From: Clostridia bacterium
Lineage (GTDB): Bacteria > Bacillota > Clostridia > UBA1212 > UBA1255
Reading direction: 5' to 3'
Assembly (NCBI GenBank): GCA_017517275.1
Contig: JAFWZX010000031.1
Location: 1 to 64,000, forward strand
Length of the DNA: 64,000 nt
The notes beneath the pieces are model-generated. The model was not told where the DNA came from and ran no database searches. It saw only the letters and a program-made list of their open reading frames with translations. Below are positions 7,258 through 62,798 of this stretch, in pieces. How positions within the stretch are numbered: position 1 is the first letter of the stretch; the number at the start of each line of letters is the position of its first letter. The position numbers and the translations under genes are program-made.

Positions 7258-7272
7258 GAGGAGGGATACATA

Positions 7273-8391: not shown

Positions 8392-8399
8392 GGTATAAA

Positions 8400-9833: not shown

Positions 9834-9848
9834 CCGGAGGAAAACAAC

Positions 9849-12284
9849 TTGAATCTTAATAAAGAAAATTTTATTCAGGACTATAAGCGTAAAATGATAT
9901 CAATGTATCAGGTATCCGTAGAGGAGGCACCTGATATGATTAAATATATGACGTTAGGTGCTACTATTAGAGATTACATGTCGTATGATTGGCATGAGAC
10001 TCAAATTGAATATGATAAAAGCAGAACGAAGAAGGTATATTATTTCTCTATGGAGTTCCTTATCGGCAGACTGATGGATTCAGCGTTGATAAATCTTGGT
10101 ATCAGGCAAGTAGTACAAGAGGGGTTGGCAGAGCTTGGTATTGATCTTGTGCAAATGGAGGAGATTGAGCCGGATGCCGGTCTTGGCAACGGCGGCCTGG
10201 GCAGATTGGCAGCGTGCTTTATGGATTCTATGGCATCTATCGGTGTCCCGGGTGTTGGTATAGGACTCAGATACAGATATGGCCTTTTTAAACAGCAGAT
10301 TGTAAACGGCTATCAGATAGAAAGTCCTGATGATTGGCTTAAAATAACAAATGTTTGGGAAACACGTCGTGATAATGAAGCTTGCATGGTAAGATTTGGC
10401 GGTACGTGTAATACATATTGGGGTGAAGACGGTAAAATGCACGTATCGTATACAGATTACGAGCCGATATTAGCAATTCCTTATGATATGCCTGTTCCCG
10501 GATATCAAAACGGTGTGGTAAACACGCTGAGGCTATGGAGCGCCGAAACAGGCGGGGTGGGTTTTGACTTTGCTACCTTTAGTCGTGGTGATTTCGAAAA
10601 AGCAATTGAAAGTCAGTCTGCTGCAAATGCTATAACCAGCGTTTTATATCCTGATGATTCTACTGCAAGGGGAAAATTACTTCGCTTGAAACAGGAGTAT
10701 TTTTTCACCAGTGCCGGAATACAAAGCATAATCAATTCAGCAAAGAAGAATGACGTTAATTTGTATGAACTTCATAATTACGTGGCAATTCACGTAAATG
10801 ATACACATCCTGCGCTCGCCGTGCCGGAACTTATGAGAATTCTTATGGATGAAAACGGAATGGATTGGGACTCTGCTTGGAACGTGACCGTAAAAACCAT
10901 TGGATATACAAATCATACAATTCTTGCTGAGGCATTGGAGAAGTGGAATATAAACGTATTTAAGCATCTTCTTCCGCGTATATACATGATTGTAGAAGAA
11001 ATTAACAGGCGCTTTTGCGTTGGATTGCAGGAAAAATACGGTAATGACTGGGATAAAATCAGTCGTATGTCCATTATTAAAGATGACGTTGTAAAGATGG
11101 CTCATCTGGCGATTGTTGGCAGTCACAGTGTGAACGGGGTTGCTAAATTACACACAGATATATTGAAAGAACAGGAATTAAAGGATTTTCATCTTTACTA
11201 TCAAGGTAAATTCAACAACAAGACCAACGGAATTACTCACAGGCGTTGGCTTATGCAGGCTAATCCGCAGTTGGCGGATCTGATTGATAATACTATCGGC
11301 ACTTCTTGGCAAAAAGCTCCATTGGAACTAAAAAAACTGAGAAAATACGAAAATGACAGTGCTTTTGTCGATAAATGCGCTGATATTAAACGACAGAATA
11401 AGGAAAATCTTGCTGCTTATATAAAAGAAAATTACAATATAACTGTTGACCCCCAATCTGTATTCGACATTCAGGTTAAAAGACTTCACATGTATAAACG
11501 TCAGATCTTAAATATAATGCAGATTATGGATTTATATAATAGACTGTGTGAGGATCCCGGCCTTAATATTGTTCCGCGAACGTATATTTTCGGCGCAAAG
11601 GCATTTCCGGGTTATACCATCGCGAAGAATACCATAAAGCTGATATGTACTGTTGCAGATAAGATTAACAATGATAAAAGGATTCAAGACAAACTAAAGG
11701 TTGTTTTCGTACCGAATTACGGTGTGAGTAAGGCTCAAATAATGATTCCGGCCGGTGACATTAGCGAACAGATATCAACAGCTTCCAAGGAAGCTTCCGG
11801 TACAGGCAATATGAAATTTATGATGAATGGCGCTGTGACGGTTGCGACTTTAGACGGAGCTAACGTTGAAATTCATCAGGTGGTTGGCGACGATAATATC
11901 ATACTCTTTGGCTTAAAATCAGATGAGGTTATTGCTTATCAAAAGAATGGAAATTATTCTGCTGCAGAAGTTATCAACAAGGATTACAGGATTAAAAACA
12001 TCTTAACGCAGATTAAAAACGGTTACTTCGGATTAGCTCCGGAAAGTGAATTTGATCTTATTTACGACCAGCTGGTAACACATAACGATCCTTTCTTTAC
12101 TCTTAAGGATTTCGCTTCATACGTTGATGCGCAGAATAAGGTCGGTGAATTGTACAAAGACAAAAAAACATTCAGGAAAATGTCAGTTGTTAATATTGCT
12201 GAATCAGGTATTTTCTCCAGTGACAATACGATAAGAAAATATGCAGAGGAGATATGGCGCGTAAGACATGACTATCAAGCATAA
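9849..12284 (+). CDS. glgP: Glycogen/maltodextrin phosphorylase
   Basis: GlgP (GT35) releases glucose-1-phosphate from the non-reducing ends of glycogen, using pyridoxal phosphate. The 811 residues include EPDAGLGNGGLGRLAACFMDS, the HVNDTHPALAVPELMRIL block, GITHRRWL and the cofactor motif EASGTGNMKF with the PLP lysine at Lys656. The start is TTG at 9849, supported by CCGGAGG 8 nt upstream; the next in-frame ATG would cut the N-terminus. It is the mobilising arm of an operon whose other genes build glycogen. Its end overlaps the GH13 gene by 17 nt. Confidence 0.97.
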   Translation: MNLNKENFIQDYKRKMISMYQVSVEEAPDMIKYMTLGATIRDYMSYDWHETQIEYDKSRTKKVYYFSMEFLIGRLMDSALINLGIRQVVQEGLAELGIDLVQMEEIEPDAGLGNGGLGRLAACFMDSMASIGVPGVGIGLRYRYGLFKQQIVNGYQIESPDDWLKITNVWETRRDNEACMVRFGGTCNTYWGEDGKMHVSYTDYEPILAIPYDMPVPGYQNGVVNTLRLWSAETGGVGFDFATFSRGDFEKAIESQSAANAITSVLYPDDSTARGKLLRLKQEYFFTSAGIQSIINSAKKNDVNLYELHNYVAIHVNDTHPALAVPELMRILMDENGMDWDSAWNVTVKTIGYTNHTILAEALEKWNINVFKHLLPRIYMIVEEINRRFCVGLQEKYGNDWDKISRMSIIKDDVVKMAHLAIVGSHSVNGVAKLHTDILKEQELKDFHLYYQGKFNNKTNGITHRRWLMQANPQLADLIDNTIGTSWQKAPLELKKLRKYENDSAFVDKCADIKRQNKENLAAYIKENYNITVDPQSVFDIQVKRLHMYKRQILNIMQIMDLYNRLCEDPGLNIVPRTYIFGAKAFPGYTIAKNTIKLICTVADKINNDKRIQDKLKVVFVPNYGVSKAQIMIPAGDISEQISTASKEASGTGNMKFMMNGAVTVATLDGANVEIHQVVGDDNIILFGLKSDEVIAYQKNGNYSAAEVINKDYRIKNILTQIKNGYFGLAPESEFDLIYDQLVTHNDPFFTLKDFASYVDAQNKVGELYKDKKTFRKMSVVNIAESGIFSSDNTIRKYAEEIWRVRHDYQA

Positions 12285-13944
12285 TTCACGTGATAAAAAA
12301 TATAAAGACCCATACGGCGCGGTGCCTTGTATGACCCGCGTCCGTCTTTCGTTTGATATAAACGATTCGGATTGTGATTTGTGGTCTTTACCTCTTTATC
12401 TGCGATGGGAGTCGGGATATTCAAAAGATGAGATATCCTTGATGCCGATGGAAGTAGCAGGAAATTTTGTTACGTATTATCTGGCAGAGGATTATCTATC
12501 CAGACCGGGTACGTATTATTACTACATCAACGGCTTTTGTGAAAAGCAACTGACTGTATACAGACAGGACCTGGATATTCCGGAATGGTTTTATGATGCC
12601 ATAATTTACCAGATTTTTCCTGACAGATTTTTCCGTGGTAACGGAAGTGTTTTCTTTAAGAAAGATTCGTTTATTTATGCCACGTGGGAAGATATGCCTA
12701 TGTACATAAGAAACGAGGATAATGAAATTGTCAGATGGGATTTTTACGGTGGAAATTTATGGGGTGTCGCACAGAAGCTGGAATATATTAAAGCCTTAGG
12801 TGCAAACGTTATATATCTTAATCCGATTTTTAAGGCGGTAAGCAATCATCGTTACGATACGTGTGATTATACGAAGGTAGATGAGGTCCTCGGCGGTGAA
12901 GAGGCCTTTTCATATCTGCTCTCTCAAGCGCAAAATGAAAAAATCGGCATAATGCTTGATGGTGTTTTCAGCCATACAGGCAGCGACAGCATATATTTTG
13001 ATATGTATAATAAATATGGGAACGGTGCGTACCATAACGAGGATTCTCCTTACAGAAGCTGGTATCGTTTCAAAGAAGACGGAACGTACGAATGTTGGTG
13101 GGATATAGCTGCCGTGCCAAATGTAAACGAGTTAGAACCGTCTTATCTGGATTTTATTGTACGAAACGACAATAGTGTGATAAAGACACGAGGCAGACAA
13201 GGTATCTGCGGTTGGCGTCTGGATGTTGCAGACGAGCTTCCCTCCGAATTTTTGCGAGAACTCAGGGCGGCTGTGTCAGACAATCAGATTGTACTTGGCG
13301 AAGTTTGGGAAGACGCATCAAATAAAGTCAGCTATGGAGCCAGAAGAACGTATTTTACAGAAAAAGAACTGCATACTGTAACAAATTACGTTTTTCACGA
13401 TAATTTACTTAGTTTTTTAAAAGGTGAAAAGTCGGGCGGCAATCTGACTGAGGTATTTGAATTACTTAAAGAAAACGTTCCGAAGCACAATTTCTATGCG
13501 CTTGTCAATATGACCGGAACTCATGATATAAAGCGATTGGCAACGGAATGCAATTGTAAAAGTATGGTAAAAGCTTTTACGATGGTAATGTTTACTTTTC
13601 CTGGAATACCTCTGATATATTATGGAGATGAAACACTACTCGAAGGTTCAACAGATCCTGATAACCGAAGACCAATGCCGTGGAACAACTTAGATGAATC
13701 TTCCGTTAAATGGTTTTCTGATATGGCTTGTCTGAGACGATCTGACAGTGTTTATACAAAAGGCGAAATATCATTTGTTGATATGAAGGATGATGATATT
13801 TTTGCATATAAAAGGACCTTAGATGAGAAAGAAATAATGGTAATTATTGATAGAAAACATAGGGGTATTGAATATTTTGACAAAAAAGTATATAGTGTGT
13901 TAGCAGATGCCGACGGATGGGGCTATGTGTTAGAAAGAATATAA
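12268..13944 (+). CDS. GH13 alpha-amylase / neopullulanase-type glucan hydrolase
   Basis: A 558-residue cytoplasmic GH13 enzyme, with no signal peptide. An N-terminal beta domain (about 20-105) is followed by the barrel starting EWFYDAIIYQIFPDRF. The active site is complete: nucleophile Asp319 (GWRLDVADE), acid/base Glu345 (VLGEVWED) and Asp420 (MTGTHD); NHRYDTCDY is the conserved region before them. The IYQIFPDRF start and FYGGNLWGV are typical of cyclomaltodextrinase, neopullulanase and related enzymes that act on maltodextrins and some alpha-1,6 links, so it probably finishes limit dextrins left by GlgP. No GlgX or MalQ is present here. It starts inside glgP with only a distant GAGGAG, so translational coupling is likely. 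Confidence 0.9.
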   Translation: MTIKHNSRDKKYKDPYGAVPCMTRVRLSFDINDSDCDLWSLPLYLRWESGYSKDEISLMPMEVAGNFVTYYLAEDYLSRPGTYYYYINGFCEKQLTVYRQDLDIPEWFYDAIIYQIFPDRFFRGNGSVFFKKDSFIYATWEDMPMYIRNEDNEIVRWDFYGGNLWGVAQKLEYIKALGANVIYLNPIFKAVSNHRYDTCDYTKVDEVLGGEEAFSYLLSQAQNEKIGIMLDGVFSHTGSDSIYFDMYNKYGNGAYHNEDSPYRSWYRFKEDGTYECWWDIAAVPNVNELEPSYLDFIVRNDNSVIKTRGRQGICGWRLDVADELPSEFLRELRAAVSDNQIVLGEVWEDASNKVSYGARRTYFTEKELHTVTNYVFHDNLLSFLKGEKSGGNLTEVFELLKENVPKHNFYALVNMTGTHDIKRLATECNCKSMVKAFTMVMFTFPGIPLIYYGDETLLEGSTDPDNRRPMPWNNLDESSVKWFSDMACLRRSDSVYTKGEISFVDMKDDDIFAYKRTLDEKEIMVIIDRKHRGIEYFDKKVYSVLADADGWGYVLERI

Positions 13945-20872: not shown

Positions 20873-23359
20873 ATGAAGAATAAAGATTTTTGGAGTAAAG
20901 TCAAATGGATCTCAGCCGTTGCTACTGAAGGTGCTGAGGGCATTCCTCTTTTCAGGAAAAAATTCAATTTAAGTAAGAAACCGGCTAAGGCAACTTTATA
21001 TGCTACGTCTCTTGGCGTTTATGATGCATATATTAATTCACAACGCGTTGGAAATGATGAAATGAAGCCAGGCTGGACGGACTATGATAAACGAGTTTTA
21101 TACTACACATATGATATAACTGATTTGCTTAAAGAAGAAAACTGCATATTATTTGCTGTTGCCAGCGGTTGGTGGAACGGCCGCATTTCATACGGAACGT
21201 ATGCAAATAACGACATTGCGCTTGCTGCATATATTCAACTTGAATATGAAGACGAGTCTGTTGAGCGCATTGTTACTGACAGAACATGGCAGTCCAAAAT
21301 CGGTGGACCTGTTATCAGTGCAGATATTTGGGATGGCGAAACGTACAATGCCAACATTGACTCATATTCAAAGATGTCTACCGTAGAGTATAAAGGAACA
21401 AAATGGAAAAAGCCGGTTCTTTTCAAGCATTTTCACGGTATTATTACAGAACATATCGGACCTACGGTAAAGGTTCGCCCGCAGTTTTGTCTTGATCCTG
21501 TTAAATCTGTTCTTTATTCATCAATCAACGATAACGGAACAGATCATGGTGAGATTATAGAAGACAAGGTTGTTGATGGTAAATATACCGGTAAGATTAA
21601 AGCAGGTACAACTCTGGTAATCGATCTTGGACAGAATATGGTCGGCTGGGAAAAGGTTACGATAAAAGGTAAGAAGAATACAACGGTTACTTTCAGGTTT
21701 GGCGAGATGCTTAATGACTCGGGAGCTGTAAGCCGCGGAAATGACGGACCGAAAGGATCTATTTACACTGCGAATTACAGAACGGCAAAAGCAACCGGTC
21801 AGTATATCATGAAAGGTGCTAAAGAAGGAGAAACGTACAGACCTAACTTTACTTTCTTCGGCTTTAGATACGTTGAGATTACTGCAGACAAAGACATCAA
21901 TCTTATTGATTTTAAAGCAGAATTTGTAAGTTCAGATATGACAGAGACCGGTTTCGTTGAGACTTCTAATGATGACGTAAATAAACTTATCAGTAACGTA
22001 TTCTGGGGCCAGCGTTGTAACTATCTTAGCGTACCTACAGACTGTCCTCAACGCGATGAACGTCTCGGATGGACAGGCGACACGCAGATCTTTGTAGGCA
22101 CAGGTGCATATAATGCAGATGTACGTGGATTCTTCCATAAGTGGATGCAGGATGTACGTGACAGTCAAAGTGAGGACGGAAGATATTCTGACGTTGTTCC
22201 ACGCTCACGTGTTGTAGGAATGGGTAATGCTGCATGGGGAGATGCCGGTATCGTTGTTCCGTACGTTATATACAGAACGTATGGAGATATTGACATTATC
22301 AAAGAGTGTTACGCATCAATGACGAAATATATGAATTTCCTCATTAAGCACACAAATATGAACGGTCCGGCAGGCGGCTACGGCGATTGGCTGGCTTATG
22401 AACCTACAGATAAACAGTATATCGGCGTTGCATATTATGCATATGATTCTACTCTTATGAGCCAAATGGCTTCTGCGTTGATGGAAGATGCGCAAAAGTC
22501 ATGTGACGAAGCATTGGCAAAGAAGTATGCCAAAGATGCCGCTAAATACAGAAACCTTTTCAAAAAGGTTAAAAAGGCTTTTCAGGCAAGATATATGCCG
22601 GAAGGTGAGTTGGTTGAGACGTCTCAGACTGCTTATCTTCTTGCTCTGTATTTTGATTTACTTCCGAAAGCATACGCTAAGAAAATCAGAAAGCGTCTTC
22701 TTGAGAAGATTAAAGAAAACGGATATAAGCTCAGTACCGGGTTTGTTGGTACAGGTATTATAAACAAAACTCTTAGTGAAAACGGCGCAACTAATATGGG
22801 ATATTCACTGCTCCTGCAGACACAGAACCCGTCTTGGCTGTACAGTGTTTACCAAGGAGCAACAACAATTTGGGAGAGATGGAATTCATATACACTTGAA
22901 ACAGGTTTTGGCAAAGTTGCGATGAACTCCTTTAATCACTATGCGTATGGCTCCGTGTTGGAATGGGTATACAAATATGTTGCGGGAATAGATACAGATG
23001 CAAATATAGCAGGCTACAAACATATAGTATTAAGACCTATGCCTGATACACGTAAAAAATCTGAACTGCCGGAAGGACAGAGTAAGATTACTTGGGTACG
23101 TGCGAAATACGACTCCGTTTCAGGCACAATAGAAAGTGCTTGGTCAGTAGAAGATGGATTATTTACATATGAAGCGACGGTTCCTGAAGGGACGGTGGCC
23201 TCTGTTCATATTCCTGTTTTCGACAAAAATGCAAAGACCATAGTTATAAATGGTGTTGTACATTCAACGGAGGAATATGAAGTAAAAGAGCTTTCATGTG
23301 TGAAATGCTATGTTATTGATTGTGCACCGGGAAAATACACGTTTGAGATTATGATGTAA
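20873..23359 (+). CDS. GH78 alpha-L-rhamnosidase, cytoplasmic
   Basis: An 828-residue family 78 enzyme that would remove terminal alpha-L-rhamnose from oligosaccharides. The beta-sandwich domains at the front include GWTDYDKRVLYYTYDIT and FAVASGWWNGRISYG. The helical barrel carries the family signature DCPQRDERLGWTGD with Asp390, Glu396 and Asp403, and later GATTIWERWNSY and NSFNHYAYGSVLEWVY. There is no signal peptide, so it works on imported sugars. AAAGGAGG precedes the ATG, 14 nt after trmFO, so it may be co-transcribed with an unrelated housekeeping gene. A perfect terminator follows. Confidence 0.93.
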   Translation: MKNKDFWSKVKWISAVATEGAEGIPLFRKKFNLSKKPAKATLYATSLGVYDAYINSQRVGNDEMKPGWTDYDKRVLYYTYDITDLLKEENCILFAVASGWWNGRISYGTYANNDIALAAYIQLEYEDESVERIVTDRTWQSKIGGPVISADIWDGETYNANIDSYSKMSTVEYKGTKWKKPVLFKHFHGIITEHIGPTVKVRPQFCLDPVKSVLYSSINDNGTDHGEIIEDKVVDGKYTGKIKAGTTLVIDLGQNMVGWEKVTIKGKKNTTVTFRFGEMLNDSGAVSRGNDGPKGSIYTANYRTAKATGQYIMKGAKEGETYRPNFTFFGFRYVEITADKDINLIDFKAEFVSSDMTETGFVETSNDDVNKLISNVFWGQRCNYLSVPTDCPQRDERLGWTGDTQIFVGTGAYNADVRGFFHKWMQDVRDSQSEDGRYSDVVPRSRVVGMGNAAWGDAGIVVPYVIYRTYGDIDIIKECYASMTKYMNFLIKHTNMNGPAGGYGDWLAYEPTDKQYIGVAYYAYDSTLMSQMASALMEDAQKSCDEALAKKYAKDAAKYRNLFKKVKKAFQARYMPEGELVETSQTAYLLALYFDLLPKAYAKKIRKRLLEKIKENGYKLSTGFVGTGIINKTLSENGATNMGYSLLLQTQNPSWLYSVYQGATTIWERWNSYTLETGFGKVAMNSFNHYAYGSVLEWVYKYVAGIDTDANIAGYKHIVLRPMPDTRKKSELPEGQSKITWVRAKYDSVSGTIESAWSVEDGLFTYEATVPEGTVASVHIPVFDKNAKTIVINGVVHSTEEYEVKELSCVKCYVIDCAPGKYTFEIMM

Positions 23360-24871: not shown

Positions 24872-24938
24872 ACAAAATAGTGTTATTGAATGGGTGGTTA
24901 TCCTTTTCAGTGATAAAAAAAACATCGGAGGTAAGATT

Positions 24939-27900
24939 ATGAAGAAAATTGTTTCAATTTTAACAGTTTTGGCTATAGTTGCGTCATTGTTTTTAATGGC
25001 TATGCCAATGACTGTTTCAGCAGAAGCGGTTGAATTCTCAGGAGATGCCAGTCAGATCCCGGAAGGCAAGATTGTTCTCACTGACGACATTAGTGGTGAG
25101 TTCAACAGAAGTTCCGGTAAATATGAGATTGACTTGAACGGTCATAAATGGACACATAATGGTCCTGCGGTTTACTTGAAAGGTACTGCAGAACTCGTTA
25201 TTTACAATGGTACCGTAGATAACAGCGCAGGTACGTCAGATGGCTTTTCACTTGAGGATGATGCGAAGGTTACTGCTACTAACGTTACAGTTATAGGCGG
25301 CAAAGGTGGTGCAGACGCATTCTGGATTAAAGGCGGCAATGCAACTATTACGGATTGTACTATATCTGCTGGTAAAGCTGGCATTGATGTAGATAACGGT
25401 AACGGTAACGCAGTTGTATCAGTTGACGGTGGTAAATTTGTTAATTATACAGGTAGCGCTGATGCCAGAAATTGCGCAATTGAGATTAGAAGAGACGGTG
25501 CTATTTCTTTGACAGGTAACATTACTTTTGAAAACAATAAGATCCTTGCCGGAAAAACTATGAATAAAACTCTCGGCGAGTCTATATCTGTTAAAGGCGC
25601 ATACGAGGCAAAGCTTGCCAATGCTTCTGTGAACAACCCGGGCGACGCAAATCCGAATACTTATACTACTATTGACTACAAGGCTGTTAAAGTTACAAAG
25701 TCTATTGACTACTTTAATGGTGTAAGAGGATCTATTGCTGATTGCAACGTATTTGAGGGACAGGATGCGATTACTATCCTTGGTTGGATTATTACAGATG
25801 CCGGTTTGTCAAACGTTAAGTATTCAATTGACGGCGGCGAGCTCATTGAACTTAATCCTACAAGAGAAAGACCTGATGTTGTTGCAGCCGTTAATTATAC
25901 AGGCGAATTAGTTGCAGCAAACAAGGTTGGTATTGGTTTGGATGCTGAACATGCAAAGATTGACATTTCAGGCTTAGAAATTGGTGAGCATGTTGTTAAG
26001 CTCTATGCATTCACAAATGCTGGAACTCAAGTAGAGGCAGGTTCTTTCAAAGTTACAGTTTTAGCTCCTTTGGCAGATGGTGAAGTTGCTGATCTTTCTA
26101 CTATTAAAGAGCCCGGTGAATATAAATTAGTTGCTGACGTAAAAGGAAACTTAACTCTTACTTCAGGCGACTATGTAATTGATCTTAACGGTCATACATG
26201 GACAAATGGTGGTATTGCTCTGAATGTTCAGGGCGCAAAAGTAACACTTACTGATACAGTAGGTACTGGCTATATCAAGGCAACTAACGACTGTATTGAT
26301 ATTAGCTCAGGTTCGATTACTGTAACAGATGCTACTGTAATTGCAGAAGGTGCCGATTTTGATGCGATCTTCGTTGGCGGCGGCGTAGTTGTTACTAATA
26401 ATGCTACTCTTTATGCAGGTAAATCAGGAATCAATGCATCACAGGCAGCAGTAGATATCACTGTAAACGGTGGTACGTTCGGTGGTGTATATTCAGGCGA
26501 TAAGTTTATACGTACATCAGCATTTGAATTCAGAAATAATGCGAAAGTAAAATTAAACGGCGATATCAATTTTGTTGAAACTGCGATTATCCGCAGAAGT
26601 GAAAAGCATACTATTTCATGGGCAGAGAGCTTCATAGTTGGCGATGACGTTACAGTAACATTTGCTTCTGATGATACAGATATCGGCGTATTCTATGACA
26701 ATCAGTATCACAGCAATGCAATTAGTTATACTAAGAGCAAGTCTGAACCTAAAGATGTAGGTATTACATCTCACTCAGGTCACTATGGTTCTCCTGTTTT
26801 GTGGCTTAAGAACTCAGAACATTTCTACCAAATAACAATTAATGCAAAGGGCGCATTTAATTCAATTATTTCATCTTTGTGGGGAGCAAATGCCGGTACA
26901 ACATGTACACTTGATATTTACGCATGGGATACAAATACAGAGGTTACATTGAATTCATTACCTGCAGCAAGTGTTACAAAGACATTTACAGGCAATCCCG
27001 CAAATTTTGTATTTGATTTTGATACTCTTGAAGCAGGACAGTATATCATCAAAGTGACATGTTCAGAAGGTTACGTTGTATTACCTGTTGCAGATGCAAC
27101 AAACGGTGTTGAAGCAACAGTATTAACAGAGAACGAGTCAAACATAAAGAATAAGTACTGGGTTGCATCTATTAGATTTGTAGACTCTAATGCAGCATCA
27201 TTCGATAGCCTTATTGAAGAAGTTAACTATGGCGATACAGAAGAATTGCCTTACATGATCTTTGATCAGGAAGATAAGGTAACAGTAGGCGCTGGCAAGA
27301 CATTCTATATTAATGCTTTCTGGGGCGGAATGAACGTTACTATTACAGGTGAAGGAGACTTTAGCGTAGTATATAACGGAACAACGTATGAATCTAATAA
27401 CGGAAAGGTAACCTTTGCAGCAGCTCCTTCAATGGGACGTATGCCCACTGCATTTTCTATAACAAACAAGACAGATGCTGCAGTAGAGTACTCACTTAAG
27501 GGAGAATATCCTGCAGGTACAATGATGAATCCTGAGAAGTATGATGATCAAGCAGATAAGACAATCAAGACAGAAGAAGGCAATGGAGAAGGATATTTCT
27601 ATGCATTCGACGCTGACAAAGACGGTTCTATCACTTTATACATCAGCGAGATTACAGAAGGTGTAAACGGAAATATCGTAATTCAAGTTATTTCACCTGA
27701 CGATACTGTTAAATATTTATCATTAGATGAAAACGGCGTTGATGGCAAACTTACGGCAGACTACAAGGCCGGCGATCGGGTTGTTATTAACGTAGCTGTA
27801 TTACCGGATGCATCATGGAACGTTCCTGCTGCAACAATTACACTGTCTGAGTATACAGAGGGTGCAGATACAGGTGACTTCGGTCTTATTGCTCTTGCAT

Positions 27901-27947
27901 TCGTGGCTGTTTCTTCAGTAGTTGTTAAAAAGAGAAAAGAAAATTAA
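24939..27947 (+). CDS. Large surface protein with two beta-helix units
   Basis: A secreted protein of 1002 residues. It has a signal peptide (MKKIVSIL..., cleavage likely after VSAEA or VSA). Two related units of about 190 residues (roughly 35-240 and 380-570) share the repeats YEIDLNGHKWTHNG and YVIDLNGHTWTNGG and look like pectate-lyase-type right-handed beta-helices. Between them lies an Ig-like stretch (ILGWIITDAGLSNVKYSIDGG). The C-terminus has TGDFG, a hydrophobic segment and KKRKEN, resembling a sortase-type or membrane-retaining tail, although LPXTG is absent. The frame reaches 15 codons further upstream, but GGAGG before 24939 decides the start. No catalytic residues recognised; adhesion or glycan binding is a guess. 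Confidence 0.85.
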   Translation: MKKIVSILTVLAIVASLFLMAMPMTVSAEAVEFSGDASQIPEGKIVLTDDISGEFNRSSGKYEIDLNGHKWTHNGPAVYLKGTAELVIYNGTVDNSAGTSDGFSLEDDAKVTATNVTVIGGKGGADAFWIKGGNATITDCTISAGKAGIDVDNGNGNAVVSVDGGKFVNYTGSADARNCAIEIRRDGAISLTGNITFENNKILAGKTMNKTLGESISVKGAYEAKLANASVNNPGDANPNTYTTIDYKAVKVTKSIDYFNGVRGSIADCNVFEGQDAITILGWIITDAGLSNVKYSIDGGELIELNPTRERPDVVAAVNYTGELVAANKVGIGLDAEHAKIDISGLEIGEHVVKLYAFTNAGTQVEAGSFKVTVLAPLADGEVADLSTIKEPGEYKLVADVKGNLTLTSGDYVIDLNGHTWTNGGIALNVQGAKVTLTDTVGTGYIKATNDCIDISSGSITVTDATVIAEGADFDAIFVGGGVVVTNNATLYAGKSGINASQAAVDITVNGGTFGGVYSGDKFIRTSAFEFRNNAKVKLNGDINFVETAIIRRSEKHTISWAESFIVGDDVTVTFASDDTDIGVFYDNQYHSNAISYTKSKSEPKDVGITSHSGHYGSPVLWLKNSEHFYQITINAKGAFNSIISSLWGANAGTTCTLDIYAWDTNTEVTLNSLPAASVTKTFTGNPANFVFDFDTLEAGQYIIKVTCSEGYVVLPVADATNGVEATVLTENESNIKNKYWVASIRFVDSNAASFDSLIEEVNYGDTEELPYMIFDQEDKVTVGAGKTFYINAFWGGMNVTITGEGDFSVVYNGTTYESNNGKVTFAAAPSMGRMPTAFSITNKTDAAVEYSLKGEYPAGTMMNPEKYDDQADKTIKTEEGNGEGYFYAFDADKDGSITLYISEITEGVNGNIVIQVISPDDTVKYLSLDENGVDGKLTADYKAGDRVVINVAVLPDASWNVPAATITLSEYTEGADTGDFGLIALAFVAVSSVVVKKRKEN

Positions 27948-43713: not shown

Positions 43714-43751
43714 TATTGTTAATAATTTAGCAATAATTGGGTGGGTGTTAT

Positions 43752-46745
43752 ATGCGTATTACGAGAATAATGAAATTCTGTATATTCTTTGTTGTGATAG
43801 CGGTTATCAGTACGGCTGTGTTATCATTTGTGGCTTGCAAAAAGGTGGTTGATGAACCGGAACCGGAACAGGAAGATTTCATCCCGGAAGATCCGCTAAG
43901 CTTCAGGATAAAAGCAATTACACCCGGCTCGTATCCGGTGAATACCGACAGTTCTCTTTCTGCCAGTTTTGCATATTCCGGCAGTATAGCAAATGGTGTA
44001 CAAGGTTTTTATACTAATGCTGATAGGGAGTTTTATGCTTTAGTAAATACGGATATGAGTCTCGTACATACGTTAGAGAGCACTGATGAATTGAACGTAA
44101 GAGACATTGCTAACAAAGACGGTATATCTTATGCCCATGATACTCTTGATGTATTTATAAAGACACAAGATAACAAAATGTATTATTCTGGCAACTCTTC
44201 AACCTCAGCCAGAATGAATACAACCAGATTAGGATATTATTATTACGAAACGCACATACGTGATTTAGGCTTTGGCGAGAGAATATCAGAAGACAGTTTT
44301 CAACAAGAAGTAAGTAGCACTACTGAAGTTAAGATTGATGCAGGATGGGCAGTAAACCAAATGTCTCAACCTATATACGATCAAGGCGGAGTAACTTTTA
44401 AGGCGGTAGACACGTACGATCCTTATTGCTATATTACTAATTTAGATACAGAAGGCTCTGAATCAGATTATCTGGAGGTAACGATTAATTCAACGGGAAC
44501 GACAACCTCAGCAGAACTTTTTATTTCTACAACGTCCGGTAAGGGATTTAACGGCGAACAGAGGATTGGTTTTGCTATTAAATCAAATGCGAAGGACAAT
44601 ACGTACAGATTGGATTTGTCCGGAATAAAAAGTCAAAAAGAAGGCATTGTCGGTCTGCGTTTTGATTTCGGACAGACAATCGGCGACTCTTTCACAATCA
44701 AATCAATAAAACTAATTGGCAGAAAAACAAGTTCCTTAAGTTATAAATTAGACAAAATCTTCCATTTCTACTCAGATAAAGTTCATCAGGAATACAGATT
44801 GATCGATAACAAAAAAAGCTCCGGCGTTAAAGAGTTTGATTCCTTTGGCGTTGAACTCAAAATACCGCTTCAGAACGTTATAGAATATAAAATATCATAT
44901 GACGGTAGCGGCAATCCGGAATATGTTGCCGCAAGTGTACAATATGCAGGAGTAATAGGATTTATTATTCCGAATGATGGAAGGACGTATAGTGTAACAG
45001 CAGAATCTGAGGGTGATTTCCTTGTAATAAGACAGTCTGTTGCGTATAACAAGAGAGATTTGGTTATAGGCAGCAGAATATATAATGATGAATCAAACAG
45101 TTTTGACGGCATCGCAGAGCAAGCACGGATAGAACGCAATCCATTGACACAAATCTCTGTTGAATCCAATAAGAAAACCGGCACAAGATACGTAAAATAT
45201 GACCCGTTGCGAGGCTCTTACCATTTTACTTTAAACGGTTCTGAGTTTAATGTGGCATATAAAGCAAAAAATGAATATTTCTCATCGGATATAACAATTA
45301 CAAATGATACTTCGGAAGAACGCAGTCTATATGTGTGGATGAACAGCCGTACAGGTGCTTTGGAAGGAGCTGCAGTAGTAGACTCCCAAGGTATCTTGCA
45401 ACCTATACAGCCTCAGGTTTGTAAGAATTTCTCAGGAGAAAAGGAAGAACCTTTTTACGATCCTACCGATACAGGCTACGGCGATAGCTTTGTTCCTTTG
45501 AAGATTGCTTCCGGACAAACGATAGAGTATACGCTACATCATATATATCAGAATTGGGGAGTTTTTCCTCTGAAGCAAATATCTTCTATCCAATTTCATA
45601 TTTCATATTATCATCTGTCTACAGGTGTTACAGAGTCAAACTGCATTGCTCCTTATTTCGTATACGGCAAGGATTTGTGGACTTTACCGGACTTTAGAGG
45701 TTGCAGTGGTATCATGTGGACGTCTCAGCCTCAGTATAATTCTATTGGCAGGCTTCGTTTTGTATCCTTCTATAAAGATTCGCTATACGTTAAGTCAGAG
45801 TATACGGATTCATATATAAGATCCTCCGGAAATACATATGCGGATATGGATTATAATTACATTTCTGATTGCGGCTCTTTTAAATATTCTTTAAGACATT
45901 TAGAATTTCCGCAGAACGATGAAAACAGAACGTATTACACCATGGACCTTCAATTTCTGAAGGATTTGAAAGTTGAGGATGTAAAGAATACGTTTACTTT
46001 ATTTAGCTTTGACGGTCGGTCGGAGAATTTTGATTACGTCGGATACAGTAATAAGAATGGTGAAGCTGTAAATAAAAGAACAAAAAAAATAGACGGCTCA
46101 TTTGAACTTATCAATATAGGAAATAAGGCTCCGTATTTTACATACTACGGATTGAATAATCCTAACACCGGCGTTATGAACTTTGCATATATAATGATTG
46201 ATTATGATATTGTAATCGGCGGCAAAAAGTGGAACGGAGATTTTGCATTCAGAAATTCTTTTGCAGGGAATTTGAATTATGGTGAGCTTTCTCTAATGGA
46301 AGATACAGTATCATTTAAAAAAGGCGACCATATCGTAATAAACTTTATTCTTCTTCCGTGGGGGAATGGAACAGATACAAATGACGCAAACGTACAGGCT
46401 GTAAGACAGGATTCTGTATTCAATAATTTAAAACTGTCTGCAATTTGCGGCACCGAAGTAAAAGATACGTTTTTACCGGGAATCAAGGCGCATAATAATC
46501 TGGCGGAGTTTACCGTTTCAGGCGGACGCAATCGCTTTACTGTCAGAATAGACGGAATGACTTCGATTGCCGGAATCAAGATAGAAGAAAAGGTAGGATC
46601 TTCTTGGAGCCCCTACGTTACTAACGTAGAAGCCTACGACGGATATCAGATTACTTATAATGAAGACGGCACGTACAGCTATTTCTTTGTTTTTGAAATG
46701 GATGATGTGGGATCTGCAAGAACGTTTAAAGTCACGGCGAAATAA
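43752..46745 (+). CDS. Very large lipoprotein of unknown function
   Basis: A protein of 997 residues with a hydrophobic leader and a lipobox-like LSFVAC (Cys29), followed by an acidic linker (DEPEPEQEDF) as in many surface lipoproteins. The body is rich in beta strands, aromatic residues and Asn/Thr/Ser. It contains a probable jelly-roll segment (about 200-330, VTINSTGTTTSAELFISTTS, KSIKLIGRK) and a region mentioning WNGDFAFRNSF. It has no catalytic motif I know. The frame opens at a TTG 15 nt earlier, but GGTGGG and the MRITRIMKF beginning favour the ATG at 43752. It stands alone between its own promoter and a strong terminator. Binding or processing of polysaccharide outside the cell would be a guess. 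Confidence 0.8.
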   Translation: MRITRIMKFCIFFVVIAVISTAVLSFVACKKVVDEPEPEQEDFIPEDPLSFRIKAITPGSYPVNTDSSLSASFAYSGSIANGVQGFYTNADREFYALVNTDMSLVHTLESTDELNVRDIANKDGISYAHDTLDVFIKTQDNKMYYSGNSSTSARMNTTRLGYYYYETHIRDLGFGERISEDSFQQEVSSTTEVKIDAGWAVNQMSQPIYDQGGVTFKAVDTYDPYCYITNLDTEGSESDYLEVTINSTGTTTSAELFISTTSGKGFNGEQRIGFAIKSNAKDNTYRLDLSGIKSQKEGIVGLRFDFGQTIGDSFTIKSIKLIGRKTSSLSYKLDKIFHFYSDKVHQEYRLIDNKKSSGVKEFDSFGVELKIPLQNVIEYKISYDGSGNPEYVAASVQYAGVIGFIIPNDGRTYSVTAESEGDFLVIRQSVAYNKRDLVIGSRIYNDESNSFDGIAEQARIERNPLTQISVESNKKTGTRYVKYDPLRGSYHFTLNGSEFNVAYKAKNEYFSSDITITNDTSEERSLYVWMNSRTGALEGAAVVDSQGILQPIQPQVCKNFSGEKEEPFYDPTDTGYGDSFVPLKIASGQTIEYTLHHIYQNWGVFPLKQISSIQFHISYYHLSTGVTESNCIAPYFVYGKDLWTLPDFRGCSGIMWTSQPQYNSIGRLRFVSFYKDSLYVKSEYTDSYIRSSGNTYADMDYNYISDCGSFKYSLRHLEFPQNDENRTYYTMDLQFLKDLKVEDVKNTFTLFSFDGRSENFDYVGYSNKNGEAVNKRTKKIDGSFELINIGNKAPYFTYYGLNNPNTGVMNFAYIMIDYDIVIGGKKWNGDFAFRNSFAGNLNYGELSLMEDTVSFKKGDHIVINFILLPWGNGTDTNDANVQAVRQDSVFNNLKLSAICGTEVKDTFLPGIKAHNNLAEFTVSGGRNRFTVRIDGMTSIAGIKIEEKVGSSWSPYVTNVEAYDGYQITYNEDGTYSYFFVFEMDDVGSARTFKVTAK

Positions 46746-51529: not shown

Positions 51530-53830
51530 ATGAACAACTCAAATTGTAAAATGATATGGACGGACGTCGACTGCGATATAAAAGAAAATTTATACGTTCA
51601 TTTTAGAACTGCTTTTATCGCTTCTCCTAAAGTCGATCAAAACATACCATATACTTTTAAAATCAGTGCTGACAGCCAGTATGCGCTGTGGATTAACGAT
51701 AATTTCGTGAATTACGGACAATATGCTGATTTCCCTGTATATAAATGTTATGACATTTTGGACGTTACTGATTATATTGTACCTGGTGAAAATAAAATAA
51801 GTATACTTGCTTATTATCAAGGTCAAAGCTCTTTTACGTATATCACAGGAAGAGCCGGCATATTGTTTACGTTAGAAGAAGGCGATCGTGTTGTTGCACA
51901 AAGTGACGCTAATGTAGAGTGTGCTGTTGCCGATGAATACAAAAACGGACCGATGGAAAGAATTACCGGCCAATTGGGCTATTCTTTTGAATATGATGCT
52001 ACGAAAATCGACGACAGGAACTGGCAAAATGCCGTTGTTGTAGGTTCGTGCATTCGTATGAATCCAAGACCTATACCTAAAATGATCATCGAAAGCAGAA
52101 GACTCGGCAAAATAATTTCACAAGGAGTTTATAAATATTCTCCTGATACAATAGATTCTCTTACAGCCTGCAAGATGCAGCAGGCATATCTGTCAGCCCG
52201 CCTTATGTCTTCAATTGCGCCTGATTCAGGTGCTGCGCCGTTTAATCTTGACGGAACAAAACCATTTTCAGTAAGAACTAAGTGCGATGACGGAGTATAC
52301 GTTATAATCGACCTGGGAAAAGAAACTGCCGGCATATTTGACCTTGAGATAGAAGCAGAGCGTGGGACTGTTGTAAACATTGGATACGGTGAGCACTTAG
52401 ATGACCTTCGTGTACGCACTAACGTAGGCGGCAGGTGTTTTTCTGGTAAGTATACCTGCAAAGGAAACGGCATTGAGCATTTTACACATTTTAATAAAAG
52501 ATTTGGTTGCAGATATATTGAGCTTATGGTAGAAAGTGGCAATTTTGATCTTTATTATGCAGGTGTACTTCCTACTGTATATCCTGTGAAAAATGTGGGA
52601 CGCTTTGGCTGTTGTGATTCTCTTCATAATAAGATACACGATGTTTGTATAGACACTTTAAAGCTTTGCATGCATGAACATTACGAGGATACTCCATGGA
52701 GAGAACAGGCTTTGTATGCAATGGATTCACGAAACCAGATTTTGTGTGGATATTACGCTTTTGGAGAATTTGACATGCCAAAGGCAAGTATAAGACTTCT
52801 GGCTCTCAGCCAATTAGACAACGGTCTGCTTGAAATTTGCGCACCGGCAAAATCAGCGACAACTATACCTTCTTTTTCCTTGCAATGGATACTGGAGTTG
52901 TACGAGTATGTTTTGTATAGCGGAGATACTGATTTTGCCTACGAGATGTGGCCGTATGCTGAAAGGATAATATCGGCCTTCTGGCGGAAAGCCGGCGGCA
53001 GAGACCTGGTAGGTCCGTGGTTTGATAAGAAATGCTGGGAATTCTACGAATGGATGCCCGGTCTTTGCGGCGGGTATATGAGTAACGTAAGAGACCGTAA
53101 TAATCGTGAAAATTACGATGCTCCGTTATCATGCTTCTATATGATTGCTTTGGACAGTATGGTAAAAATTGCAAAATGGCTCGTACCGTATACAAGTGAA
53201 GATATTGATTTTATGGAAAAAGCTTCATGGTATGAGATGCTTGCAAGCGGAATCAGGGATTCTTTTGATGATGTCTTTTGGAACGAAGATAAAGGTTGTT
53301 ATGCCTCTTTTGTAGTAAACGGTGAATTAACAAATCACTTTTGTAAACTTACAAATGCATTGGCTTTGTACGCAAAACTTGTACCTGAAGATAAGATTTT
53401 TGCAGTTGCAGATAAGCTTGCTTATGATGATACACTCATTGATACGAGTCTTAGCGCTTCTATATTTAAATATGAAGCTTTGTTAATGCTTGGTGACACT
53501 TATGCCCAGTTTGTTTTCGATCAGATAGGTCAAAAGTGGGGACATATGCTCTATAGCGGCGCAACTTCCTTCTGGGAAACAGAAAAAGGTGCATGGGACT
53601 TTGATAATGCAGGTAGCTTATGTCACGGATGGAGCGCTGTTCCCTTGCTGCTTTATTACAAATATCTTCTTGGTGTAAGTCCTAAAACAAAAGGATTCGA
53701 GGATTACACATTCAAACCTCTTAGAACGTCAATAATTGAAGCTCACGGCAATATAATACGCAAAAACGCTAAGCCGCTTTTTGTCGGTATCACGCCGCAG
53801 GGTGTTGTTGTGGAAGAACAATATTCTTGA
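51530..53830 (+). CDS. GH78-like alpha-L-rhamnosidase, cytoplasmic
   Basis: A 766-residue protein related to family 78. Its beta-sandwich front part (TFKISADSQYALWINDNFV, YDILDVTDYIVPGENKISIL) is followed by a helical barrel. The active-site stretch is EDTPWREQALYAMDSRNQ, where Asp387, Glu392 and Asp399 keep the spacing of the D-5-E-7-D acidic residues known from GH78, though the neighbours differ from the DCPQRDER type. Later, GATSFWETEKGAWDFDNAGSLCHGWSAVPLL is a family C-terminal block. No signal peptide. It is alone in its transcript. A specificity different from that of the first GH78 enzyme (20873-23359) is likely. Confidence 0.85.
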   Translation: MNNSNCKMIWTDVDCDIKENLYVHFRTAFIASPKVDQNIPYTFKISADSQYALWINDNFVNYGQYADFPVYKCYDILDVTDYIVPGENKISILAYYQGQSSFTYITGRAGILFTLEEGDRVVAQSDANVECAVADEYKNGPMERITGQLGYSFEYDATKIDDRNWQNAVVVGSCIRMNPRPIPKMIIESRRLGKIISQGVYKYSPDTIDSLTACKMQQAYLSARLMSSIAPDSGAAPFNLDGTKPFSVRTKCDDGVYVIIDLGKETAGIFDLEIEAERGTVVNIGYGEHLDDLRVRTNVGGRCFSGKYTCKGNGIEHFTHFNKRFGCRYIELMVESGNFDLYYAGVLPTVYPVKNVGRFGCCDSLHNKIHDVCIDTLKLCMHEHYEDTPWREQALYAMDSRNQILCGYYAFGEFDMPKASIRLLALSQLDNGLLEICAPAKSATTIPSFSLQWILELYEYVLYSGDTDFAYEMWPYAERIISAFWRKAGGRDLVGPWFDKKCWEFYEWMPGLCGGYMSNVRDRNNRENYDAPLSCFYMIALDSMVKIAKWLVPYTSEDIDFMEKASWYEMLASGIRDSFDDVFWNEDKGCYASFVVNGELTNHFCKLTNALALYAKLVPEDKIFAVADKLAYDDTLIDTSLSASIFKYEALLMLGDTYAQFVFDQIGQKWGHMLYSGATSFWETEKGAWDFDNAGSLCHGWSAVPLLLYYKYLLGVSPKTKGFEDYTFKPLRTSIIEAHGNIIRKNAKPLFVGITPQGVVVEEQYS

Positions 53831-59511: not shown

Positions 59512-59597
59512 CGTTTTGTTTAGTTTGCCCAAATCTAACCTGGGCGCATTTTGTGTTATTAATCGTTTCACAATCTACAATATGGAAGGTTGAGCGT

Positions 59598-62500
59598 ATG
59601 AATAAAAAGAAGAAGAAGAGAATTATTCAATTATCGGTCGTGGCCGGTCTTCTCATCATTCTTATTGCTGTTCTCGTTATCAACTCTGCTACCAAAGAAC
59701 CGGGAGCGCAGCAGTTTGAGTACGAAAACTTCGATGAGATGGAATTTAATCCGTTTATAACGAATGAAGACAGACTCGACAACAGTTTACTCAAGTACGG
59801 TAAAGTATTGAGTAAGTATGCGAAGAAGGGTTACAAGTATTACACAGGTGATGATATCAGTTATGATTTCTCAACTGATACTAATGGTAATCTTACTATC
59901 TATGAGACAGGTAAGCCTGAGACAGCTGTTACAGTAGAAGGCAGCGATGCATCGGAGGCTCTTTCTTTGTTTTCACAGATAGAGATGTTCGCAGAAGGAT
60001 TCAAGTATACTGATCCGTCAAAGGATGCAGAAGTTGTTGTTACAGACATTGAAGATGGTCTGTATGCTTCTACAGGCAAGACTACCATTACTTTCCAGGT
60101 AACAATCCCCGAGGCAGCTTTATATTCGTTGAAGTTGGATTATTATCTTTTAAGCGGAAAATATGCAGATATGCTTGTTTCCTTTACAATTGACGAGAAA
60201 TATCCTTTTGCTGAGGCAAGCAATTTGTCCCTTAAACGTACATATACGTTCTATGATACGGATTACTTAGAGAATAAAGATATAGTAGGTAATCAGATTC
60301 GTGGTAAGACAATGATTCTCTATGGACAGAGAAGTCAGATAATGACAAACCCTGACGGATTGTATAAAGATCCTTATAGATTCTACATGACAGAAGGTAC
60401 ACACGTTATTACAATGACTTTTGACAGAGAACCCGGTGTTATAAATGGAATCAGTTTCGTAGCTCCTCCTGTTGTAAGTTCGTATGAAGACTACAAAGCA
60501 GCAAACGGATTTAGCGAAGGCGCTATTTATAAAGGCGGTATCATCAAAACTGAACTTGAAGTTGCTGATTTTGTTACAAGCATCAGTACCCGTATGGAAA
60601 CAGACGGTAACTACTGTACGTCATCAGATGTAAATGCAAAGCCGTATAAGGTTACTCTTTACAATATCTTCGGCGGAGACAAATGGAATACAGGCGGAGA
60701 TATGGCAAAATGGACGTTTAGCGTTCCTGAAACCGGATGGTACGAACTTGGTTTCAGATACAAATCACAACTTACATATGTTGCTTGCTATAGAGAGATT
60801 AGAATTGATGATGAGATTCCTTTTGAAGAGATGAAAGAGTACTGCTTCCCATATTCAAACGGTTGGATCGGAACTTCTCTTTGTGATGCCAATCAAAATC
60901 CTTACTTGTTCTATCTTGAAAAAGGTACTCATACAATCACAATCACAAACAAAGTTGGTCCTCTCAGACATGCACTCCTGTCTCTGGAAGAGTCAATGGA
61001 TTCAATCTCCACGTTGATTAACAAGATTGTTAAGATCACAGCTTCAACACGTTCAAGCTCCGGCGGTTATATCGTAGACAGCAACCGTGACTGGGACTTA
61101 CAGAAGTACATTCCTTCCATACAAGAAGATATTGCTACATATAGAGAGCTTTTTGATAAGACCTATGAAGAGATTCTTTCTTTGAATGGAAATAAAATTC
61201 CGTCCTATGCATCTGCAATCCAGGTTGCATCTGAGCTTTTTGAAAAATTTGAAGAGGATCTTGAAAAAATACCTACTTCTCTTAATGATATTAATAATGC
61301 ACTTTCCGGTTTAAGTACAACACTTTCTTCTATAAAGGATCAGCCTATGACTGCTGACTATATGGTTGCTTGTACAAGTGGATATGATTATCCGAATACG
61401 ATAAGTTCCGGCTGGCAGAATTTCAAGGTCGGAGTTGTTAGATTTATTGATTCTTTTGATACAGAAAAGTATAAGAATTATGGCTTGAGAGAAGAAGTAA
61501 CCGATGATGATACAGAGATTACAGTTTACGTGTCGCGTGCAAGAGAATACGTTACAATTCTTGAGAACATGATTGGTGAAGACTTTACAGCTAAGTATGG
61601 CATTAAAGTTAACGTTAACATGGTTGCCGGCTCTTCGGAAGGTTTGATTATGCCGCGTTATGTAGCAGGCACAGCTCCTGATGTTGCTATTTCAATTGGT
61701 GTAGGTACTCCTTTTGAATATGCTGTACGTAGTGCACTGACACCTTTGGATACGTTTGAAGCCGGTGAATATAATGGTCAGCCGTATCTTGGATTTGAAG
61801 ACCTCAAGGGCGAATCGTATTATGACGAAGTTTTCAGGCCTATTGTATTTAAAGATCATTGTTACGGTTTCCCGGAGACACAAGGTTGGTCAGCTCTCTT
61901 CTATAGAACAGATATATTTGAAGAATTAGGCATTACTCCTCCTGATACGTGGCAGGATGTATATGATATTATTCCTATCCTTACAAATTCAGGTTATGAC
62001 TTCTGCTATAACTATGGTGTAGGCGGTTATACACCATTCCTTTATCAGCACGGCGGTACGTTCTATGATGAACACGGCATGGTATCAGCTCTTGGTACAC
62101 AAGCAGCATACGATGGATTTATTGAATATTGTAACTTATATTTGCAGTACAACTTTGTATATGCAGCTAACTTCTATATGAGATTTAAGTCAGGTGAGAT
62201 GCCGATCGGTATTGGTGATATGGGCTTCTACTGCCAGCTCAATTATGCAGCTCCCGAGCTCGAAGGTAAGTGGGCAATGAGACCTGTTCCGGGTCATGCT
62301 ACTATCAACGAGGCAGGCGAAGTTGTAATTGACAGATCTATGAACGCTGTTGGTACGTGTTCAATTATTCTCAGCAGTTCAAAACTCAAGGAAGAATCAT
62401 GGATTTTCTTACAGTGGTGGGCATCTGACGATGTTCAGGCTGAATATGGCAGAGAGATTGAAGCTACTTTCGGTGTTGCCGGAAGGTGGACTACTGCTAA

Positions 62501-62798
62501 TAAGAACGCTGTTCAGGAATTACCTTACACAGCTGAGGAATTAGAAGTTATCAACGCTCAGTGGGAATGGATTAAAGAAACTCCTCAAACACTTGGCGAC
62601 TATTATACATCAAGATACTTGGTTACTGCTTTGAACCAGACTGTATTACAAGGACAAAGCGCCAGAGTTGCTATTGAAGATGCTATACGTGAAATCAATA
62701 AAGAAATGAGACGTAAGCAAGAACAATATTGGGATATTTTGGCTGATGGCCCAGATCCGAGCATTGGATCATGTCTCCATAGCCTTAAGGAAAATTAA
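59598..62798 (+). CDS. Membrane-anchored sugar-binding protein with two CBM-like modules
   Basis: A 1066-residue extracellular binding protein. A lysine-rich start (MNKKKKKR) and one membrane segment (about 9-29) without a lipobox suggest a permanent membrane anchor. Two beta-sandwich modules of the CBM6/35 type seem present: about 90-320 (FQVTIPEAALYSLKLDYYLL, YMTEGTHVITMTF) and 340-470 (WTFSVPETGWYELGFRYKS, YLEKGTHTITITN). A helical linker follows (about 475-600), then a family 1 solute-binding domain (about 625-1050) with MPRYVAGTAPDVAIS and FYRTDIFEELGITPPDTWQD. Two permease genes follow at once. A GGAAGGT site fixes the ATG at 59598; the longer frame has none. The substrate is probably an oligosaccharide. 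Confidence 0.9.
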   Translation: MNKKKKKRIIQLSVVAGLLIILIAVLVINSATKEPGAQQFEYENFDEMEFNPFITNEDRLDNSLLKYGKVLSKYAKKGYKYYTGDDISYDFSTDTNGNLTIYETGKPETAVTVEGSDASEALSLFSQIEMFAEGFKYTDPSKDAEVVVTDIEDGLYASTGKTTITFQVTIPEAALYSLKLDYYLLSGKYADMLVSFTIDEKYPFAEASNLSLKRTYTFYDTDYLENKDIVGNQIRGKTMILYGQRSQIMTNPDGLYKDPYRFYMTEGTHVITMTFDREPGVINGISFVAPPVVSSYEDYKAANGFSEGAIYKGGIIKTELEVADFVTSISTRMETDGNYCTSSDVNAKPYKVTLYNIFGGDKWNTGGDMAKWTFSVPETGWYELGFRYKSQLTYVACYREIRIDDEIPFEEMKEYCFPYSNGWIGTSLCDANQNPYLFYLEKGTHTITITNKVGPLRHALLSLEESMDSISTLINKIVKITASTRSSSGGYIVDSNRDWDLQKYIPSIQEDIATYRELFDKTYEEILSLNGNKIPSYASAIQVASELFEKFEEDLEKIPTSLNDINNALSGLSTTLSSIKDQPMTADYMVACTSGYDYPNTISSGWQNFKVGVVRFIDSFDTEKYKNYGLREEVTDDDTEITVYVSRAREYVTILENMIGEDFTAKYGIKVNVNMVAGSSEGLIMPRYVAGTAPDVAISIGVGTPFEYAVRSALTPLDTFEAGEYNGQPYLGFEDLKGESYYDEVFRPIVFKDHCYGFPETQGWSALFYRTDIFEELGITPPDTWQDVYDIIPILTNSGYDFCYNYGVGGYTPFLYQHGGTFYDEHGMVSALGTQAAYDGFIEYCNLYLQYNFVYAANFYMRFKSGEMPIGIGDMGFYCQLNYAAPELEGKWAMRPVPGHATINEAGEVVIDRSMNAVGTCSIILSSSKLKEESWIFLQWWASDDVQAEYGREIEATFGVAGRWTTANKNAVQELPYTAEELEVINAQWEWIKETPQTLGDYYTSRYLVTALNQTVLQGQSARVAIEDAIREINKEMRRKQEQYWDILADGPDPSIGSCLHSLKEN

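Follow-up and report, generated by a model that had tools for sequence, protein, structure and literature searches.

The window analysed here, a stretch of 64,000 nucleotides from a Clostridia bacterium (positions 1 to 64,000 of contig JAFWZX010000031.1, assembly GCA_017517275.1), contains near its end a gene for a solute-binding protein (SBP) of 1066 residues, hereafter the long SBP, in which a membrane helix, two homologous beta-sandwiches (D1 and D2), a helical spacer and, last, a solute-binding domain of family 1 follow one another from the N to the C terminus. The long SBP is probably the substrate-binding subunit of a carbohydrate ATP-binding cassette (ABC) importer, fused to two modules resembling family 35 carbohydrate-binding modules (CBM35) and to a helical stalk, and tethered by its N-terminal helix without a lipid. 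As proposed in an initial annotation of this DNA, holding a polymer and capturing the oligosaccharides released from it is a plausible function for such a protein, as judged from sequence.

Architecture of the long SBP

The open reading frame (ORF) is intact from its ATG, with no internal stops. Close relatives, which begin at the same Lys-rich MNKKKKK-type motif, make an alternative in-frame start (GTG at 59553) less likely. Pfam placed SBP_bac_1 at residues 655-948 (E 2.1e-21, 77.6 bits against a cut-off of 26) and no other Pfam model scored above its cut-off in the long SBP, and NCBIfam models, run against the long SBP and the adjoining permease A1, gave no match at cut-off. Usual Gram-positive SBPs are short lipoproteins, and the unusual length noted in the initial annotation proved real: the six other SBP_bac_1 matches of this genome (one of them sub-cut-off) lie in open frames of 362-544 residues, and the frame of the long SBP has 1095. 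Mis-assembly or a frameshift fusion was ruled out by an 80%-identical full-length homologue in the Oscillospiraceae metagenome-assembled genome SIG424. In total 35 sequences were aligned end to end, the 34 relatives being 25-80% identical to the window protein, and since, besides this full-length homologue, sequences with only about 25-30% identity still have the same architecture, the N-terminal half is not a chance fusion. Residues invariant across the 35 sequences are present in both D1 and D2, and the poorly conserved parts are the linker (residues 33-139) and the tail. By sequence profile, the nearest solved SBP was Lin1841 (5ysb, E 2.5e-31), whose ligands are beta-1,2-glucooligosaccharides according to PMC12369401 and a reference title, but the distance is too great for this match to fix the ligand of the long SBP.

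The replacement of the lipid anchor by a membrane helix, also claimed initially, holds in so far as a lipobox is absent from 33 of the 35 long SBPs, the other two (L041 and L046) having a Cys within the hydrophobic stretch; it is less certain for some distant relatives, which by eye resemble secreted proteins with cleavable signals. A lipobox is carried by 13 of 14 (SBP494) and 5 of 5 (SBP450) of the ordinary SBPs of the same operons, fragments shorter than 380 residues being left out of this tally.

The two sandwich domains

Three lines of evidence, namely Pfam matches in relatives, profile comparison with solved structures, and a moderate-confidence model followed by fold search, support a CBM35-like fold for D2. 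Among the 35 family members, Pfam CBM_35 was matched in 21 at E up to 1 (best 2e-6) and Golvesin_C in 29 (best 6.4e-5), mostly below cut-off where scores were shown; in relative L055, CBM_35 falls on D1 (104-149) and CBM_6 on D2 (308-392). The D2 profile matched 20 distinct sequences of solved structures at E up to 1, with cycloisomaltooligosaccharide glucanotransferase at the top (E 1.6e-9), in a region which we take to be its CBM35. By name, nearly all of these matches are carbohydrate-acting or carbohydrate-binding proteins of kinds known to carry CBMs, as some of their structure titles also state.

Structure prediction used the sequences of the window protein and relative L002 only. The D2 model, built from four domain sequences, had a predicted local distance difference test score (pLDDT) of 58.9 and a predicted TM-score of 0.58. 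Foldseek again returned a protein of the cycloisomaltooligosaccharide glucanotransferase type first (E 6.1e-5), among 5 matches at E up to 0.001, and VIA-align gave Z scores of 10.6, 9.9, 9.6 and 9.4 to Xyn30D and CBM35 chains, the best match aligning 111 residues at a root-mean-square deviation of 2.6. Further rows of the fold search included a family 98 glycoside hydrolase (GH98) endoxylanase (Z 8.7), Cry5B (Z 8.6) with other Cry toxins lower, and virus capsid sandwiches; we read the Cry-toxin and capsid rows as probable generic jelly-roll similarity.

D1 is, by profile comparison, a homologue of D2 (hhalign probability 99.6%, E 9.6e-24), and the D2 profile detects D1 inside the window protein (E 2.7e-6). 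Searched against solved structures, the D1 profile matched the same kinds of protein weakly (best E 0.0047), together with a few unrelated ones. The CBM6/35-like sandwich fold of the initial annotation is thus supported, for D2 directly and for D1 by its homology to D2; the D2 model and the fold search gave a CBM35-like sandwich and not a fold unlike carbohydrate-binding modules. The sandwich region, first set at residues 90-470, was narrowed to about 140-292 (D1) and 329-462 (D2), with the helical spacer at 463-625.

Among 20 copies of a paralogue set, mean pairwise identity was 0.44 in D1, 0.49 in D2, 0.43 in the helical part and 0.52 in the SBP domain, so that divergence is slightly greater in the sandwich modules than in the SBP domain.

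Elsewhere, five genomes of family f45 (G064, G111, G150, G184 and G213) contain open frames of 384-390 residues with two D2-like matches each, which are possibly stand-alone relatives of the paired sandwiches; the matches listed for these genomes include no frame near 1000 residues.

The transport cassette

Family 1 SBPs hand sugars to MalF/MalG-type permeases, which are powered by a MalK/MsmX-type ATPase. The long SBP is followed by genes for permeases A1 and A2, an NHL-repeat/Yip1 membrane protein, a DUF5696 protein, permeases B1 and B2, and then usually lipoprotein SBPs (Table 1). BPD_transp_1 scored above cut-off in A1, A2 and B2 and below it in B1. The seven-gene order from the long SBP to B2 was fully visible in 27 of 35 loci; of the remainder, L038, L050, L054, L061, L064 and L066 run into the edge of a stretch or contig, and the greedy ORF finder called no B1 in L035 and neither DUF5696 nor B1 in L043. 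Permease A1 is split in two pieces in L045, and NHL and Yip1, at most loci encoded together by a single gene, are encoded by two neighbouring genes at four (L049, L054, L055 and L058). An SBP-like or lipoprotein gene lies 3' of B2 in several distant loci, not including L072, mostly as judged by eye. The genome of the window, which is 80% complete, has one OB_MalK match for a MalK-type ATPase, on another contig. In Paenibacillus cellulosilyticus ugpC, encoding a MalK/UgpC-type ATPase, lies directly upstream of the long SBP, and in Butyrivibrio fibrisolvens a GH43 gene lies upstream and two SBP genes downstream; both records name the long protein merely "extracellular solute-binding protein", and for the other parts of the cassette too they give domain-based names only.

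Table 1. Features of the long SBP and its cassette, with the evidence for each
Feature	Position	Strand	Evidence or remark
Long SBP gene, 1066 aa	59598..62798	+	ORF, Pfam, end-to-end alignment
N-terminus (residues 1-32), Lys-rich at the start, with a membrane helix that is either signal anchor or signal peptide; lipobox absent	59598..59693	+	
D1, CBM35/6-like beta-sandwich, residues 140-292	60015..60473	+	homology to D2, profile
D2, CBM35-like beta-sandwich, residues 329-462	60582..60983	+	profile, model, fold search
Predicted helical spacer/stalk, residues 463-625	60984..61472	+	low-confidence model and conservation
Family 1 solute-binding domain, residues 626-1046	61473..62735	+	Pfam, profile
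Permease A1 (MalF/UgpA-like), 328 aa	62802..63788	+	Pfam, gene order
Permease A2 start, 293 aa	63785..64000	+	continues to contig position 64666, beyond the window
NHL-repeat/Yip1 membrane protein, 703 aa	contig 64683-66794 (outside window)		Pfam
DUF5696 protein, GH129-like, 854 aa	contig 66787-69351 (outside window)		Pfam
Permeases B1/B2	contig 69355-71261 (outside window)		Pfam
Two lipoprotein SBPs, 494 and 450 aa	contig 71283-74221 (outside window)		Pfam

The DUF5696 family profile matched the 3,6-anhydro-D-galactosidase DagB (5opq, E 1e-16) and the GH129 enzyme NagBb (5wzn/5wzq, E 7.5e-4). The position of NagBb Asp330, which we take to be a catalytic residue, holds Tyr or Phe in 15 of 25 DUF5696 members and Asp in none of the 25 (by eye). 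The DagB study (PMC5698469) states that mutation of Asp202, Asp486, Glu517 or Glu531 inactivates the enzyme, and that of the two catalytic residues of NagBb, DagB homologues keep only Asp435. DagB Asp202 faces a Lys in our profile alignment, as counted by hand from the anchors Cys198, Lys208, Asn218 and His347 of that study; this residue comparison covers the Asp202 and Asp330 positions, the alignment stopping before the Asp435/Asp486 region. Neither position is kept; DUF5696 is not supported as a proven GH129 enzyme and stands as a candidate one. The conserved acids of the family, in the numbering of the protein of this cassette, include Asp280 (24/25), Asp642 (22/25), Asp702 (22/25) and Glu738 (24/25). 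One cassette ORF, in L080 (G097:C5:97500-117400), has 2721 residues and a DUF5696 match at 30% identity, and is far longer than the other DUF5696 ORFs seen.

Distribution and genomic surroundings

A protein search matched 43 of 58 genomes: 15 of 16 in the family of the window (its own genome included), 14 of 15 in the rest of the order and, in the remainder of the class, 14 of 27, where several matches are weak or partial. In a sample of 299 genomes of the phylum, the long SBP was found in 27 genomes, DUF5696 in 26 and both in 25, counting 52 D2-profile matches at E 1.7e-33 or better, a cut chosen after inspection of the list, and 45 DUF5696 matches over cut-off. Of the 33 genomes with any D2-profile match these cuts leave out 6, whose matches are weaker, and of the 33 with any DUF5696 match they leave out 7, whose matches are sub-cut-off; with none dropped, both occur in 28 genomes, D2 alone in 5 and DUF5696 alone in 5. 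The architecture singled out in the initial annotation recurs, both in the 35 aligned sequences and, by strong D2-profile match, in the 27 phylum genomes. Six genomes of the counted list carry 3-8 copies of the long SBP. A plasmid search gave 13 matching records, from which the P. cellulosilyticus and B. fibrisolvens cassettes come; among the matches listed (10 of 11), the other records match the SBP part only, at a coverage of 33% or less. No relative was found in the viral contigs scanned with the family profile.

Neighbouring genes were surveyed around 20 copies in five genomes (four of the six multi-copy genomes and one with two copies), where the scan took in 96 of the 112 neighbour proteins that have 200 residues or more. 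Among the families listed (25 of 122), LacI occurs 8 times, AraC-type helix-turn-helix 5, GH43 4, GH28 2 and GH2 2. Ten neighbours hand-picked from the longer proteins at five of the 20 loci comprise 8 glycosidases (GH38, GH2 twice, GH78-like, GH127, GH10/GH43 with CBM6, GH35 and GH43), one transglutaminase-type protein and one protein without a match.

On its own contig the cassette is followed, downstream of metA, by a gene for a leucine-rich-repeat protein (contig C30 76872-77984; L032:17872-18984), relatives of which adjoin the cassette in three other genomes (L074, L075 and L076). Elsewhere in the window, two alpha-L-rhamnosidase-type (GH78-like) proteins are encoded upstream of the cassette at 20873-23359 and 51530-53830, a possible hint at a substrate. 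A complete-looking glycogen operon at 4136-13944 encodes a branching enzyme, two ADP-glucose pyrophosphorylase-type proteins, starch synthase, phosphorylase and alpha-amylase, and two ORFs, at 43737-46745 (1002 residues) and 24894-27947 (1017 residues), have no Pfam match over cut-off.

Proposed function and alternatives

We propose that the CBM-like domains would hold a polysaccharide at the cell surface, where the DUF5696 protein might trim or bind it, and that the terminal SBP domain would pass the resulting oligosaccharide on to permease pair A. Permease pair B would be served by the lipoprotein SBPs, and a single shared MsmX-type ATPase may energise both pairs. The polymer-holding function is strengthened by the cassette order, the glycosidase neighbours, ugpC in Paenibacillus and GH43 in Butyrivibrio. 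A bolder version, which is possible although we hold it only tentatively, is that the whole cassette works as a single machine for processing and importing glycans at the cell surface, the equivalent of SusCD in a Gram-positive cell, in which the CBM-armed SBP would grip the polymer, the DUF5696 protein and the NHL propeller/Yip1 protein would assemble with it in the membrane, and the products would go to the two permease pairs.

Several observations weigh against a polymer-holding import subunit. The window protein itself gave no Pfam CBM_35 match even at E 10, for which reason we dropped D2 as an outright CBM35 member and claim it as CBM35-like only, and among nine relatives scanned singly L055 alone passed the CBM_35 cut-off, and barely (28.5 against 28). 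The AlphaFold2 model of the whole protein, from two sequences, was unusable (pLDDT 31.3) and was kept out of the fold search, and the D2 model is only moderate, with low Foldseek TM-scores (0.45 to the top match). D2 diverges among paralogues of the same genome about as much as the SBP domain, so that a role of D2 in specificity stays putative. Genomes in the lineage of the window have the cassette in a single copy or nearly so; on this contig it stands beside the housekeeping genes thrC, hom, lysC, murD and metA rather than in an evident degradation locus, and the distance to the two GH78-like genes upstream is about 6 and 36 kb. DUF5696 lies near only 22 of the 52 SBP copies (same contig and strand, at most 12 kb away; downstream of 19 copies and upstream of 3), a low figure due in part to fragmented multi-copy genomes and to the scoring of at most 4 DUF5696 candidates per genome. 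Lastly, the glycosidase counts are uncontrolled neighbourhood counts.

The strongest alternative, though an unlikely one, is that D1 and D2 serve as scaffold or for docking, binding a cassette partner (DUF5696 or the NHL propeller) or the cell's own envelope glycan, without polymer specificity. A CBM35-like fold is by itself no proof of sugar binding, DUF5696 and NHL/Yip1 travel with the long SBP, and D2 residues N356, G380 and Y382 are kept in 55 of 55 orthologues and paralogues and W363 in 54 of 55, a near-invariance that leaves room for a docking role. However, carbohydrate-binding modules are the best-scoring relatives by both fold and profile, and conservation is lower in D1 than in the SBP domain (0.49 against 0.61 in the family alignment, besides the lower pairwise identity), as a ligand-adapted module might be. 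It seems still less probable that the main task of the cassette is to monitor glycans, for sensing or envelope maintenance, with transport secondary: the low copy number in the family of the window (15 of 16 genomes, its own included), the housekeeping surroundings and the presence of a Yip1/NHL protein without an assigned role would suit such a system, but the two permease pairs, the extra lipoprotein SBPs, ugpC in Paenibacillus and the multi-copy expansion beside diverse glycosidases fit import. A sugar SBP of the ordinary kind, its N-terminal fusion being fortuitous or degenerate and functionless, might account for the poorly conserved linker and tail, but is hardly credible given the same architecture in all 35 aligned sequences and the invariant residues of D1 and D2.

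Relation to known systems

The proposed import subunit resembles those of the family 1 carbohydrate ABC importers energised by MsmX/UgpC, such as the Lin1841 system and the beta-glucan gpPUL of Blautia producta, in its SBP_bac_1 domain, the MalF/MalG-type permease pairs and a MalK-type ATPase, but the long SBP adds two CBM35-like modules and a stalk and has a non-lipid N-terminus, and its cassette unites two permease pairs with NHL/Yip1 and DUF5696. Known CBM35 modules sit on enzymes. Those of cycloisomaltooligosaccharide glucanotransferase, Xyn30D and Clostridium thermocellum CBM35 resemble D2 in fold and profile, and D1 through its homology to D2, whereas here the modules are on a transporter's binding protein. 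DUF5696, in turn, has a profile similarity to GH129 and GH129-like enzymes (NagBb and DagB) but differs from them at the two Asp positions described above. The comparison with SusD made in the initial annotation survives as an analogy only: SusD and the surface glycan-binding proteins of polysaccharide utilisation loci (PULs) in Bacteroidota would be alike in the proposed task, holding polymer beside the importer, but belong to a different importer type, and we found no sequence relation, the SusD family models giving no match in the Pfam scan of the long SBP up to E 10.

According to one account (PMC10318527), Gram-positive PULs lack SusD and surface glycan-binding proteins, and CBMs on endo-acting enzymes often substitute for them. 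In the titles and abstract openings of the open-access papers listed by our searches, we found no report of CBM modules on a binding protein or of this cassette, and no papers on DUF5696. The system is most likely a variant of Gram-positive PUL transport in which the glycan-binding modules would be carried by the ABC importer's own binding protein. Here CBM-like modules are placed on the transporter's own binding protein, within a conserved cassette that extends to named Bacillota including rumen Butyrivibrio and Paenibacillus. If true, this would suggest how such cells avoid losing polymer fragments, and DUF5696 and the bacterial NHL/Yip1 proteins would gain a testable function.

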